This document shows, piece by piece, positions 2,908 through 59,613 of a stretch of DNA of 64,000 nt. The stretch is taken from positions 558,001 through 622,000 of the forward strand of contig NZ_QKNW01000001.1 in assembly GCF_009663395.1 (NCBI RefSeq), written 5' to 3'. Each line of letters begins with the position of its first letter. Position 1 is the first letter of the stretch. This DNA comes from Halosegnis longus (GTDB lineage Archaea; Halobacteriota; Halobacteria; Halobacteriales; Haloarculaceae). Below the pieces are notes generated by a model. That model searched no databases and had not been told where the DNA came from. It saw nothing but the letters and a program-made list of their open reading frames with translations. The position numbers and the translations under genes are program-made.

Positions 2908-3260
2908 CCAACCTTTCCCCACACCGCACACGCTCGCACGGCGAGCGGTGCGGTAGGCCACCGCCTCGGTTGCTTGTGCGGTGGCGTGGTCCGAGCGCGC
3001 ATCGGCGCGCGAGTCAGTGCGAGGTCGTCGCGAGGGCACCGAGCGACGGCTTGTCAGAGCGTGCGCTGACAGTGGACGAGTGAGCACCGCGAGCGAGTCG
3101 GCTGGGGAGGCGTGTGGGCGGTGCTGTCGGGTGGACTGAAAGGGGCGGGCGTGTCGCGCGTGTTCGGTCGGTTCCGTGACCACTATCGGGAGCGAGCGCA
3201 GCGAGCGACCGATATGTCACGGGGAGACCGCGACACGTCCGGGGCTTTCAAGCCGTACTC
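2908..3260 (+). repeat. Dispersed structured repeat, copy A
   Basis: Non-coding region between divergent purC and nreA. It shares order and sequence with 49663-49951 (copy C) and partly with 20217-19960 on the minus strand (copy B). Shared blocks include gccaccg-ctcggttgc, a GC-rich hairpin near 2994-3013, cgagtcggctggggaggc, and a terminal module 3137-3250. The module has 22-bp inverted arms (3137-3158 and 3229-3250, starting tgaaag and ending ctttca) around an inner hairpin formed by ccgtgac (3174-3180) and gtcacgg (3216-3222). I see no credible protein in it. It could be a structured RNA, a regulatory leader or a MITE-like element. Confidence 0.75.
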
Positions 3261-3352
3261 ACCAACGTAGTTGCGGTCACCAAGCGACACGTCCGGGGCT
3301 TTCAGGCTGGTCACAACAGAGCAGTCACCAGACGACACGCCCGGAGTGTTCA
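3231..3352 (+). repeat. Three tandem degenerate copies of the repeat's right arm
   Basis: The motif cgacacgtccggggctttca occurs at 3231-3250, again exactly at 3285-3304, and in degenerate form (cgacacgcccggagtgttca) at 3333-3352, with periods of 54 and 48 bp. The spacers share gtcacca-type sequence, and acagagcagtca appears twice (near 3316 and 3367). The array ends about 90 bp before the nreA start. Copy C of the element has only one arm at this place. Confidence 0.8.
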
Positions 3353-3443
3353 AGCGGTCACCAATAACAGAGCAGTCAAATGAGTAGAGAGGTCCAGAAA
3401 CAGGCGAACAGTTCAAGACCGAGAAAGCAGAAACTGAACCCGA

Positions 3444-18922: not shown

Positions 18923-19261
18923 TTACTCGTCGCCCCAGTCGGGATTCGTGCGCGGCGGCGAGAAGATATCCACGCCGAGGAACGGCTCGTCGCCGCGGTT
19001 CTCGACGCCGTGGACCTCGTTCCCTTCGAGCACGTACGAGTCGCCCGGGCCGAGCGTAATCTCCTCGCCGTCTTCGAGCAGGAAGGTACCCTGCCCCTGA
19101 TAGATGAAGCCGGCCTGCTCGTGGTGGTGGTCGTGTTTCGGGACCGTGGCACCCGGTTCGATGCGGAAATGCTGGACGCTCGTTTTCTCGCCGCTCGCCA
19201 TCTGTGCGAGGAACACGTCCTCGACCGCCTCGGTCTCCGCGCCGATGTCGTCGGTGTCCAT
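18923..19261 (-). CDS. Small cupin-domain protein
   Basis: A 112-residue single cupin. The first metal motif is visible as HDHHHEQAGFIYQGQGTF (residues ~43-60), with several histidines and a Glu, and the second as LEGNEVHGVENRG. The protein probably binds a divalent metal; the substrate is unknown. It lies upstream of trpG on the same strand? No: trpG (19286-19912) is transcribed toward it, so the cupin gene follows trpG by 24 bp and may be co-transcribed. Confidence 0.85.
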   Translation of the reverse strand: MDTDDIGAETEAVEDVFLAQMASGEKTSVQHFRIEPGATVPKHDHHHEQAGFIYQGQGTFLLEDGEEITLGPGDSYVLEGNEVHGVENRGDEPFLGVDIFSPPRTNPDWGDE

Positions 19262-19285: not shown

Positions 19286-19912
19286 TTAATCCCGTCGGGA
19301 AGCCGTGGCGAGGAAGCTACGGACCATCTGTCGCCCGTGGTCGGTGAGGATAGATTCGGGATGGAACTGCACGCCGACGTGGGGGCGGTCGGCGTGGCGC
19401 ACCCCCATCACGACCCCGCGCTCGTCTTCGGTGCGTGCGGTCTCGGTGAGCGCGTCGGTCAGGTCCGCGCGCTCGACCGCCAGCGAGTGATACCGGCCGA
19501 CGTGCAGTTCGTCGGGGAGGTCGGCGAAGACGCCCCGGCCGTCGTGGCTGACGACCGAGGGCTTCCCGTGGACCACCTCGTCGGCCTGTCCGACCGGGAC
19601 GCCGTTTGCCGCACACAGCGCCTGATGGCCGAGACAGACCCCGAGGGTCGGATACGCGAGGTCGCGGAAAATCGGGAGCGAGACGCCCGCCTGCTGTGGG
19701 GTTCCCGGTCCCGGCGAGACGACGACTGCGCGCGGGGTCATCCGGTCGATGTCGCTCGTCGTGACGGCGTCGTTTCGCCTGACCTCGATTGTATCGCGCG
19801 CCTGTTCGTTCGTCAGCCCCTCAGCGAGGAGTGCTTCGCCGACGTACTGGACGAGATTGTACGCGAACGAGTCGTAGTTGTCGATGACGAGGATGGGATT
19901 TTGTTCGTTCAT
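19286..19912 (-). CDS. trpG: Anthranilate synthase component II (glutaminase; TrpG/PabA)
   Basis: A 208-residue class I glutamine amidotransferase that supplies ammonia to the chorismate-using partner encoded upstream. It begins MNEQNPILVIDNYDSFAYN, has the nucleophile elbow GVCLGHQALC and the catalytic His/Glu in VQFHPESI. TrpG and PabA cannot be separated by sequence alone. ATG 19912 is the family start. Unusually, 321 bp containing a repeat copy separate it from trpE, where a tight or overlapping junction is normal. Confidence 0.9.
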   Translation of the reverse strand: MNEQNPILVIDNYDSFAYNLVQYVGEALLAEGLTNEQARDTIEVRRNDAVTTSDIDRMTPRAVVVSPGPGTPQQAGVSLPIFRDLAYPTLGVCLGHQALCAANGVPVGQADEVVHGKPSVVSHDGRGVFADLPDELHVGRYHSLAVERADLTDALTETARTEDERGVVMGVRHADRPHVGVQFHPESILTDHGRQMVRSFLATASRRD

Positions 19913-19959
19913 CTGTTCCACCCAGTGATTTTGTTCGTGATGGAGGCAACTGCTGGAAG

Positions 19960-20217
19960 AGTACTGCTTCCGAAGCCCTCGCACTTGCTCCGGTCGATGC
20001 GCCGGCTGCGCGCCTCGGGGTCGCGCTGTCGCGCGGCCACCTGCGGTGCTTGCTCGTGCGCGTCGTCCCGGAGCGGGCTCGCCCTTCGAGTCCGCCGAGG
20101 GACCGCACCGCCCACACGCCTCCCCAACCGATTCCGTCGCTCACGTTCGTTCGCTCCGTCATCCCTCGCGCTGACTCGCGCGCACGAGGCGCGCTCGGAC
20201 CACGCCACCGCAGGAGG
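19960..20217 (-). repeat. Dispersed repeat, copy B, between trpE and trpG
   Basis: On the minus strand this region reads through the same blocks as copies A and C: gtggcgtggtccgagcgcgc, then cgcgagtcag, cggttggggaggcgtgtggg and a ggactcgaagggcgag start of a terminal module, which ends with gagggcttcg...gcagtactc near 19960. The 5' half is close to copy A; the 3' module is diverged but keeps the same arm pattern. It points in the same direction as trpG. I see no credible ORF in it. Confidence 0.6.
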
Positions 20218-20233
20218 GCGGGGAGAATCGGAG

Positions 20234-21700
20234 TTACACATCACCATCACCCTCCACGGAGAGCCGGGTTTCGAGCGCGGTATCGAGGGCGGTAATCAGG
20301 GCGCGACCCTTGTCCAGCGTCTCCTCGTACTCGGCGTCGGGGTCCGAATCGTGGACGATACCGGCACCGACCCGGAGCCCGTACTCGCCGTCCGTGTGGA
20401 CGAGCGTCCGGATGACGATGTTGAGGGTGGCGCGCCCGTCGAAGCCGAGCGCGAACATCGACCCCGTGTACGGCCCGCGCTTCGTCGCCTCGACTTCCTC
20501 GATAATCTCCATCGTCCGGGGCTTTGGCGCGCCGGTGATGGTCCCGCCGGGGAACGCCGCCGCAATCGCATCGACGGCGTCGAACTCCGGGCGGAGTTCA
20601 CCGGCCACGAGCGAGACGAGATGCATCACCTCGGAGTAGCGGTCCACCCGGCGGTACTCCTCGACCTCGACGCTCCCGAACTGCGACACCTTCCCGAGGT
20701 CGTTGCGCTCGAGGTCGACGAGCATGGCGTGTTCGGCCCGCTCCTTCGCGTTCTCGGTGAGTTCGCGTTCGAGCGCGGCGTCGATATCGGCGTCGCCACC
20801 CCGGGGACGGGTGCCGGCGATCGGCTCCGTCAGGAGTCGGCCGTCGTCGACGTCGAGCAGGAGTTCGGGCGAGGCGCTCACCAGGTCCACGTCCGGGAAC
20901 TCCACCAGCCCGGAGTAGGGAGCCGGATTCACCCGCCGGAGGGCGTCGTACGCCGCGACGGGGTGGACGGCCGCGGGCGCGGTGAGCCGCTGGCTCACGT
21001 TCGTCTGGAAGGTGTCGCCGGCGCGAATCAACTCTTTCACCCGGCGCACGCGGTCGGCGAACTCGGCACGCGTCGCGTCCCCGACGAACTCCACGGAGTC
21101 GGTTTCGACCGGTGGGTCGGGCAGCGACGGCTCGCCCGTCGTCAGGTCGGTCGCGAGCGATTCGGCCCGGTCGCGCGCCCGCTCGTAGATTGCTTCGGGG
21201 CCCTCGTCGCCGTCGACGCGCGGGCAGACACACACCCGGAGCGTCGGGTCGCCGTCGCGCGCATCGGCCGCCTCCCACGCCACGACGCTGTCGAAGCGGC
21301 CGAACTGGACCCGGGGAAGCCCGCGGTCGTCGACCGTCTCGTCGGGCAGCGCTTCGAGTTCCCGGACCGCGTCGTAGGAGAGCCAGCCGAACAGGCCACA
21401 CGGGTACGGAACCGCACAGTCGCCGCGGACGAGCCGTTCGTCGGCGACTGCATCGCGGAGCGTATCGAAGGCCGACGTCTCGGGACCGACGCTGACGACT
21501 TCCTCGGGGTCGGTCGCGAAGTAGCCCCACCCGTCCTGTCCGCCGGTGGTCTCGTAGAAGACGCCGTGGTCGCCGCGCGCGCGGCGATAGGCGTCGAAGG
21601 GGTCGGCCACGACGCGCGCTTCCACGGGGATGCGCGCTCCGGCCGGCGCGTCGGCTGCCAGCTCGCGGAAGGCGGTCTCGTCGGTAGCGACCCGAACCAT
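20234..21700 (-). CDS. trpE: Anthranilate synthase component I (TrpE-type chorismate-binding enzyme)
   Basis: A 488-residue chorismate-binding enzyme. The catalytic half shows [46 protein letters not shown] and [11 protein letters not shown]. The motif PIAGT has Ala where aminodeoxychorismate synthase PabB has the catalytic Lys (PIKGT), which favours anthranilate synthase. The site equivalent to the LLES tryptophan-feedback motif reads FYET here, so feedback control may differ. It lies between a HhH protein gene and the repeat-separated trpG, with aroE further upstream. PabB activity cannot be excluded. Confidence 0.88.
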
Positions 21701-49386: not shown

Positions 49387-49662
49387 GCTTCGACGGCCGA
49401 AATCGACAGCAGGCGCGCCTGTGCGCGTGCTCTCGCGTGTACGTGCTCGTGCGTGTCGTGGTCGGGTTGGAGTGGTCTGTTTTCGATACTGCTGACGCTG
49501 TTTGGTATGGTTTCGACAGCACCGCGACCACTCTCGATGCTTGGCATAGGGGAAACAGCACCGCGACCGCAGCGGTCGCATCGCGCCACGAGGGCGCGAC
49601 GGACCGCTCGCTCGCGTGTCGCTGCGCTCCCGCTCGCTGGCCCGCGGCCTCCGGCCGCTCTC

Positions 49663-49951
49663 CCAACCTTTCACCACGACACACACGCGCCACGGGCGCG
49701 GTGCGTCAGGCCACCGGCTCGGTTGCCTGTGCGGATGGCGTGGGCCGGCGCGCCTCGTGCGCGCCCGTCGTCGCGAGGGACGAGTGAGTGAAACGAACGA
49801 GTCGGTTGGGGAGGCTCGTGGGCGGTGCGGCCGGGGGGACTGAAAGGGGCGGGCGTGTCGCGCGTGTTTGGTCGGCTCCGTGACCCCTCTCGACGTGAGC
49901 GAAGCGAACGAGAGATGTCACGGAGAGACCGCGACACGCCCGGGGCTTTCA
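49663..49951 (+). repeat. Dispersed structured repeat, copy C
   Basis: Lies between divergent topA and truD. It matches copy A through cccaaccttt, aggccaccg-ctcggttgc, cggcgcgcctcgtgcgcgc, gagtcggttggggaggc and the terminal module. That module (49841-49951) has inverted arms tgaaaggggcgggcgtgtcg+cg (49841-49862) and its near-complement at 49930-49951 ending gggctttca. An inner hairpin is formed by ccgtgac (49878-49884) with gtcacgg (49917-49923). Base pairs in the inner stem differ from copy A but remain paired. The 49355-49662 stretch before it holds only the topA promoter and CA-rich sequence without a credible gene. Confidence 0.75.
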
Positions 49952-58338: not shown

Positions 58339-58968
58339 GTGAGCGTGATTGCTCGGTACGCGATTCAATCCGATGCACTACCCCTCGCCGAGACGTGCTC
58401 GCAGGGGTCGATTCGGCTCGTACTCGAACGGACGGTCGGGGTAGACCCGTCTCGGCCGGCACACTTCTCGTGGGTCACGGAGGGGGCGACGGCGTTCGAG
58501 GCGGGAACCGAAGCCGACCCGACGGTCCGTGACGTACGATGTCTCACCGAAAAGAACGGTCGCCGGCTCTACCGGTACGAAGTGACCGACGAGGCGCACA
58601 CGACGTATCCGAAGCTCGTCGACATCGGCGCACAGCGGCTGCACGCACAGTACGCCGACGGCTGGTGGCACGTCCGGACGCGGTTTCCCGACGCGGAGAC
58701 GTTCACCGCGTACAGGGAGTGGCTCGACGACGAGGGCGTGACGGTCCGACTGCTCCGCGAGTACACGTCGGACGCTCCGGGCGACAGCGGCCTCACACCC
58801 GAACAGGAAGCGGTGTTGAAGCTCGCGAGGGAGCGCGGCTACTTCGCGATTCCGCGGGAGACGACCGCGAAAGCGCTGGCCGAGGAGCTGGGTATCTCCG
58901 GGCAGGCGGTGAGCGAACGACTCCGACGGGGGTTGGCGCGCCTGACCGAGCGCCACGTGGGGGTGTGA
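58339..58968 (+). CDS. Bacterio-opsin activator-type HTH regulator, first of tandem pair
   Basis: A 209-residue protein starting at GTG 58339. The N-terminal ~150 residues are the HTH-10-associated sensor-like domain (GADG-like module, ending RLLREYTSDAPGDSGL), and the C-terminal ~60 form the HTH: TPEQEAVLKLARERGYFAIP, then LAEELGISGQAVSERLRRG. Such proteins resemble Bat, the activator of bop. It has no PAS or GAF domain that I can see. It is a paralogue of the next gene; the two differ clearly in sequence. Confidence 0.88.
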   Translation: MSVIARYAIQSDALPLAETCSQGSIRLVLERTVGVDPSRPAHFSWVTEGATAFEAGTEADPTVRDVRCLTEKNGRRLYRYEVTDEAHTTYPKLVDIGAQRLHAQYADGWWHVRTRFPDAETFTAYREWLDDEGVTVRLLREYTSDAPGDSGLTPEQEAVLKLARERGYFAIPRETTAKALAEELGISGQAVSERLRRGLARLTERHVGV

Positions 58969-58974
58969 CAGCCG

Positions 58975-59613
58975 GTGAGCTGCATCTTCTCGTACAGCTT
59001 CCGGTCGCCGGAGCTCGCGCTCGCAGAGACGCTGGCTGGTGAGGATATCGAACTGGAGGTGGAGTATATCGGCGCGCAGGGACCCGAGGAGCTTCGGCTG
59101 TTCGTCTGGGTCTCGGAGGGCGTGTCGGCGTTCGACGACGGCATCGAGCGCGACCCGACGGTGACCGACCCGGTCGTCGTGAGCGACGACGAGACGGAGC
59201 GACTCTACAGTCTCGCGACGACGGACGCCGTCGAGACGACGGTGTACCCGCTGTGGGCGACGCGGGACGGCGAGGGGTTGTCGGCCCACTACGAGGACGG
59301 ATGGTGGCACTCGGAGATTCGGTTTCCGACGCGTGAACAGCTTGCAGCCTACCGCGAGGCGCTGCTCGAATCGGGCGTGCAGGTGGAGATGCGCGGCATC
59401 TACAGGGAGGAGTCACACGAGCCTGCGCCGGGGCTGACGACCGAACAGCGTGAAGCGCTGACGGCCGCCTATCGGAACGGCTACTTCTCGGTGCCGCGGG
59501 AGACGACGACGGCCGCGCTGGCCGAGACGCTGGACATCTCTGGGCAGGCGGTGAGCGAGCGGCTCCGGCGCGGGTACGCCCGGCTCGTGGACGCGACGTT
59601 CGGCGACGAGTGA
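58975..59613 (+). CDS. Bacterio-opsin activator-type HTH regulator, second of tandem pair
   Basis: A 212-residue paralogue of the preceding gene starting at GTG 58975, six bases after its stop. It has the same plan: N-terminal domain with SYSFRSPELALAETLAG, and an HTH reading TTEQREALTAAYRNGYFSVP and LAETLDISGQAVSERLRRGY. The C-terminal HTH is the most conserved part between the two. Duplication with divergence is likely. The pair sits between GGGP synthase and AspRS with all three genes co-directional. Confidence 0.88.
   Translation: MSCIFSYSFRSPELALAETLAGEDIELEVEYIGAQGPEELRLFVWVSEGVSAFDDGIERDPTVTDPVVVSDDETERLYSLATTDAVETTVYPLWATRDGEGLSAHYEDGWWHSEIRFPTREQLAAYREALLESGVQVEMRGIYREESHEPAPGLTTEQREALTAAYRNGYFSVPRETTTAALAETLDISGQAVSERLRRGYARLVDATFGDE

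Follow-up and report, generated by a model that had tools for sequence, protein, structure and literature searches.

The window (the whole 64-kb stretch of Halosegnis longus DNA that was analysed) carries on its minus strand a component I gene (20234–21700, PabB-like) followed by a component II gene (19286–19912, PabA-like), which encodes 208 aa from an ATG at 19912. The nearest named match of the component I protein is that of H. rubeus F17-44, with 93% identity. The sequence-only reading had called the pair trpE and trpG, but this is the wrong pair. In NCBIfam profile searches component I scored 338 bits against TrpE-arch (cut-off 512) and component II 182 bits against the haloarchaeal anthranilate synthase II model Anth_synII_Halo (cut-off 320). 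The real TrpE (572 bits) and TrpG (338 bits), both above their cut-offs, are encoded at C1 ~758.8 kb in a trpDFEG operon, where trpG and trpE overlap by 4 nt and genes that read by eye as trpF and trpD lie upstream of trpE. The window component I reached 405.7 bits against PabB-clade2, 3 bits short of the curated cut-off of 408.55. In view of these scores, and of a true trpE/trpG pair elsewhere, a trp identity was ruled out and the window genes are best called pabB and pabA.

The two genes are separated by 321 nt (19913–20233, minus strand), in agreement with the distance given earlier. The corresponding spacer in H. rubeus is 357 nt long, and two genomes of the same genus have none: pabB and pabA overlap by 8 nt in G004 (GTGACTGA) and by 1 nt in G005 (TGATG). 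Two further genomes of the genus, G001 and G003, gave partial genes only. Component II lies downstream of component I in 47 of 49 haloarchaeal loci (the exceptions are L035 and L070), or in 48 of 50 when L081, which stands outside the 49-locus listing and whose component II was found by gene calling, is counted. Gene calling was based on codon usage. The pabA start codon is at −4 in 33 of 47 haloarchaeal loci. At the insertion point the pabB frame ends in GDV*, with one extra codon, in the window species and in GD* in G004. The overlaps in G004 and G005 and the common −4 start uphold the proposal that an insertion split genes that had been coupled. Since H. rubeus has a repeat-bearing spacer while the genes of G004 and G005 overlap, the spacer is an insertion that most likely arrived after G004 and G005 branched off but ahead of the separation of the window species from H. 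rubeus.

The three sequence blocks that had drawn attention to the spacer are present on the minus strand in the order quoted, and their match to two other copies in the window is real. Copy A (2930–3248, plus strand, in the region 2.9–3.4 kb) consists of a 5′ domain followed by a 3′ domain at 3130–3248 and matches at 2977–3004 (96%) and 3089–3128 (88%); copy C (49660–49949, plus strand, in the region 49.6–50.0 kb, with its 3′ domain at 49834–49949) matches as well. Matching sequence was also sought in the rest of the genome. With 40 of 67 candidates scored, at least 28 places (the spacer among them) matched at E ≤ 0.001; when neighbouring places are joined, they make up about 20 loci, with a weak match of 36 nt besides. 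The best non-self E value was 4e-26, so that chance does not account for the matches. Halosegnis copies are built from a 5′ domain and a 3′ domain. Each end carries repeated boxes, double-hairpin modules are optional and occur at fixed points, and full copies are about 350–500 nt long. For analysis, 28 Halosegnis 5′ domains (A1) and 22 of 23 Halosegnis 3′ domains (A2) were aligned; L152 was left out of A2 because its stretch is only 67 nt.

Each optional module is a pair of neighbouring, near-perfect hairpins placed at a fixed point within the repeat, and the modules resemble nested double-hairpin elements. They were seen in L012, L015, L016, L020, L023, L149, L150 and L158 (A2 columns 10–68 and 154–204). 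The double-hairpin elements of fungal mitochondria are mobile modules in which two hairpins stand side by side; these belong to another domain of life and the analogy is limited to the optional modules. The boxes CGACACGCCCGGGGCTTTC on the 3′ side and GACAGCACCGCGACCACTCTCGTTGCTTGG on the 5′ side recur every ~50–60 nt, with one to three occurrences in each copy (window 3211–3380; 5′ flanks).

In the pab copy all parts lie on the minus strand. The 5′ domain (TGCGGTGGCG...GGTTGGGGAGGC...GCGGTGCGGTC) occupies 20097–20212, and a hairpin with tandem GA/GA mismatches lies at 20130–20163, each arm being 4 nt longer than in H. rubeus. The 3′ domain (GGCGGACTCGAAGGGC...GCAAGCACCGCAGG...GCGAGGGCTTC), at 19972–20096, forms the covarying hairpin; its GC content is 0.76, and its R2 match of 71 bits is to a model that includes the sequence itself. 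This 3′ part had been taken for diverged sequence. It is instead the conserved 3′ domain of another subfamily, found in other genera. When 251 nt of the pab copy were compared with 146 family genomes (5 candidates scored per genome), 86 gave matches, several of them near full length with 72–73% identity. These near-full-length relatives in other genera rule out a truncated copy of the A/C type. The earlier alternative of an old insertion or a separate subfamily turns out to be true on both counts, because the insert predates the H. rubeus split and its 3′ domain is a cross-genus subtype. Rfam gave no match over the gathering score in the whole 64-kb window; with the element stretches searched at E ≤ 1, the pab copy had none and copy A had one sub-threshold match, to sR44. 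In the literature searched, no description of such a haloarchaeal repeat, its motifs or a structured RNA of this kind was recognized, which is a statement about that literature and not about absence from print. A search of PMC2864571 for a set of terms found no mention of haloarchaea.

Covariation was examined in the pab-type 3′ domain with an alignment of 20 members from Halosegnis and several other genera (A3), whose rows were chosen with a pattern in which the outer boxes, and not the covarying stems, were fixed. A3 shares one long hairpin with two-sided changes in 16 of 23 pairs. Two-sided cells numbered 70 against 22.4 in shuffles, the covariation value was 0.403 against 0.123, and on all five measures 0 of 500 shuffles did as well; covariation was far lower under sliding. 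The A3-built model matches the 3′ domains of copies A (E 7e-4) and C (E 5e-4), both outside the training set, and this ties the two subtypes of the repeat together. Eight further non-overlapping members (A5), found by a structure-aware model search and chosen by hand, were aligned without structure and again folded into a single long hairpin, in which 24 of 30 pairs showed changes in both partners. The Halosegnis alignments gave an excess of two-sided cells too, 66 against 23.4 in shuffles for A1 and 20 against 6.1 for A2 (0/500 in both). Some other measures did not clearly exceed shuffles, either in A1 (pairs changed on both sides, 305/500; further pair types, 489/500) or in A2 (further types, 260/500; pairs with change, 11/500). 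The 5′-domain hairpin is an alternation of Watson–Crick steps and tandem GA/GA in 26 and 27 of the 28 copies. Wobbles summed over A1, A2 and A3 comprise 120 G–T and 25 A–C cells, which points to the copy-A strand, the mRNA strand in the pab copy; A3 by itself shows no strand preference (7 G–T and 11 A–C cells).

By itself the window spacer has a predicted fold no stronger than that of its dinucleotide shuffles (z −0.11), although the H. rubeus spacer folds better than its own (z −2.84). Of the 23 A3 pairs, only 18 and 17 are preserved in the two pab copies as aligned, and a shifted register restores the inner helix only by eye. Hairpins form easily in GC-rich sequence, which is a point against reading the element as structured RNA, and paired changes could also arise by palindrome-directed template switching or by exchange between copies. 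Between the two species a 122-nt core is identical at 118 of 122 positions (97%) compared with 238 of 288 (83%) at pabB 4-fold sites (p 4e-5, for one species pair). Beyond the core, towards pabA, conservation is poor. In the 5′ hairpin, the gain of 4 nt on both arms in one species is as expected if pairing has been kept; copying from another repeat could give the same result.

Long spacers recur at this junction in other haloarchaea. Spacers of at least 200 nt occur in 7 of 48 pabB–pabA junctions (L029, L038, L059, L065, L071, L073 and L081). The 5′-domain pattern is present in five of these seven, from H. rubeus, three Haladaptatus and one Halorussus, and thus in 5 of the 48 junctions, with 6 matches in all. 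Elsewhere in the 50 loci (359 kb) it matched twice, once between genes in L050 and once in L053, and reversed sequence gave one match; the L053 match, which runs across the pabB/pabA start, was judged spurious. In the Haladaptatus and Halorussus spacers the 5′ domain is in the sense direction in four of four, one of which also has an antisense copy. Relatives with an equally long but unrelated spacer had been named as evidence that would speak against an insertion. Long spacers do exist in Haladaptatus and Halorussus, but 4 of 6 carry the 5′ domain of the repeat, and the insertion is not refuted. Halosegnis belongs to the Natronomonadaceae, and Haladaptatus and Halorussus to the Haladaptataceae. 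Because the families differ, and because same-genus relatives of the window species have overlapping genes, two independent arrivals at pabB–pabA are likely. We rejected recurrence as proof of function: it amounts to about 2 of 5 independent events, and over about 8 junctions the chance is near 0.1 by a hand estimate. Counted by events, the recurrence is suggestive only. Matches to the 3′ domain were found elsewhere in Halorubrum near aroE, in L050 and in L070. Several Halorubrum species carry this domain near aroE in the aroE–pabBA neighbourhood (L067:1544–1649, L072:564–680, L063:1528–1641, L055:1564–1676 and, with a weak match of E 0.086, L053:1504–1586).

The explanation we prefer, which we hold to be about evenly balanced between right and wrong, is by analogy: the spacer may be a structured intercistronic RNA element, similar to ERIC and NEMIS, that uncouples pabA translation and perhaps alters mRNA processing. 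The sequence comparisons establish the insertion, the family membership, the conserved structure and the conservation in two species; co-transcription, the loss of coupling and an effect on mRNA processing or subunit ratio are what we infer. The spacer is a full-length representative of a haloarchaeal family of structured, modular repeats found between genes; it entered at the stop codon of pabB, in an ancestor shared by the window species and H. rubeus. The repeat has the same orientation as the pabBA message and would therefore be expected to be transcribed as a structured intercistronic RNA. With the insertion the stop/start overlap was lost, so that translation of pabA would now begin either independently or following a long scan. 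A purine-rich sequence that may act like a Shine–Dalgarno motif precedes the pabA ATG in both species; by eye, this is a possible, weak GGTGG in the window (19918–19922, minus strand) and GGAGG in H. rubeus. That the hairpin core is conserved suggests a present role, in which it may influence how the pabB and pabA parts are processed, how stable they are or how much of each is made relative to the other.

ERIC/IRU of enterobacteria and NEMIS/Correia of Neisseria are short repeats that lie between genes, code for no protein and give rise to transcripts folded into long stem-loops (PMC2229807). The same paper describes ERIC in Yersinia as co-transcribed with its neighbours and as altering mRNA stability in an orientation-dependent manner. 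The likeness lies in the long stem-loop of the transcript, which is predicted here from covariation (A1, A2 and A3). ERIC and NEMIS are shorter than 200 bp and A+T-rich, with TA termini, terminal inverted repeats and usually target duplications, whereas the Halosegnis repeat has two domains plus optional double-hairpin modules, reaches about 500 nt and is G+C rich. No terminal inverted repeat was seen, and the structure covaries across genera. The repeat does not show the MITE-type combination of A+T richness, a length under 200 bp and TA termini.

A more ambitious version would place these dispersed two-domain elements in a novel structured-RNA class, present throughout haloarchaea and missing from Rfam, that settled at pabB–pabA at least twice independently, always with a sense copy, and sets the subunit ratio there; we regard this as rather unlikely. 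The element is uncatalogued, supported by covariation and spread over many haloarchaeal genera. The locus also offers a natural experiment, with the same gene pair overlapping in some species and holding the element in others, and the effect of a repeat on archaeal translational coupling is therefore directly testable.

The strongest competitor, less probable than the intercistronic RNA element yet to be taken seriously, is that the spacer is a neutral, selfish or relic repeat, tolerated at the junction with no role for pabBA and with a structure that serves its own spread. Many copies are scattered over unrelated intergenic sites and share no gene context. The copy at C1:488.9 kb (L011:1309–1818) is about 500 nt long and faces an empty site of about 10 nt in H. 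rubeus (G002 C7:499.41 kb, between convergent genes), a clean case of presence and absence in which neither a duplication nor a terminal inverted repeat was seen by eye, with boundaries that are uncertain by about 10 nt. At the site of copy A, the H. rubeus copy is closer to paralogues (85–88%) than to A itself (78%), which indicates shuffling. The pab core, however, is conserved above the 4-fold sites, and with its nearest paralogue at 71% it has no close source for conversion. Moreover, 15 of 17 H. rubeus copy loci are orthologous to own-genome copies, so that there is little current movement, and the own genome has no IS200-type Y1 transposase (PF01797). The H. rubeus copy at L171 lies in a rearranged place.

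Two other readings are improbable. The repeat might be a DNA-level replication element whose single-stranded hairpins are held in one orientation relative to the origin. The 15 strong R1 sites of the genome (C1 31 kb–2.19 Mb) all fall into two circular orientation runs, which has a chance of 3%: 11 full copies are on the plus strand left of the orc1/cdc6 pair (1.10–1.115 Mb), three are on the minus strand to its right and one is on the plus strand at 2.19 Mb, and the directions of flanking genes do not explain this. The pab copy nevertheless points the opposite way, as do partial copies at 1.660 and 1.663 Mb, and a prediction made beforehand for G020 failed: no orc gene lies in the predicted interval of 2.13–2.30 Mb, the nearest being at 2.375 Mb and a further one at 1.15 Mb. 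Replication polarity was dropped as the main explanation after this failure. About as doubtful is a relation to the PATEs of Haloquadratum walsbyi, which PMC3119063 describes, together with SMRs, as transposase-free, palindromic, nested repeats of a haloarchaeon; PATEs are related to IS605 ends and have strain-specific insertions. The many palindromes, the hairpins throughout, the fact that no target duplication was seen at the one empty site and the precedent of PATEs in haloarchaea would suit such an origin. Against it, PF01797 is missing from the genome, no TnpB was recognized by eye beside 17 of 20 copies, and members lie between housekeeping genes, several at positions common to related species. 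The repeat is set apart from PATEs by description rather than by sequence (no Y1 transposase; 15 of 17 H. rubeus loci orthologous), and an IS605/TnpB link was set aside as unlikely, with no Y1 transposase in the genome and no TnpB recognized by eye beside copies. A viral origin was likewise rejected, with no match in the phage collection; plasmid matches to the repeat were partial only (7, 7 and 8 records). Least probable of all is the earlier idea that the repeat supplies a promoter for pabA: the 321-nt gap leaves enough room, but no conserved promoter is seen, the spacer is 30% A+T and its only A/T-rich 7-mers (6/7) lie about 13–23 nt before the ATG, in sequence that aligns poorly with H. 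rubeus.

The window also contains a direct repeat of 108 nt with 81% identity, at 58836–58943 and 59478–59585 (642 nt apart). In several relatives a class IV aminotransferase-like (PabC-like) gene lies 3′ of pabA, as judged by eye; the one such gene scanned, in L031, had its top scores against branched-chain aminotransferase models, under their cut-offs. This PabC-like gene is missing downstream of the window pabA, where a cupin-like gene is found instead (18923–19261), and H. rubeus (L029:5431–6506) has a cupin-like gene and one further gene on the opposite strand in its place.
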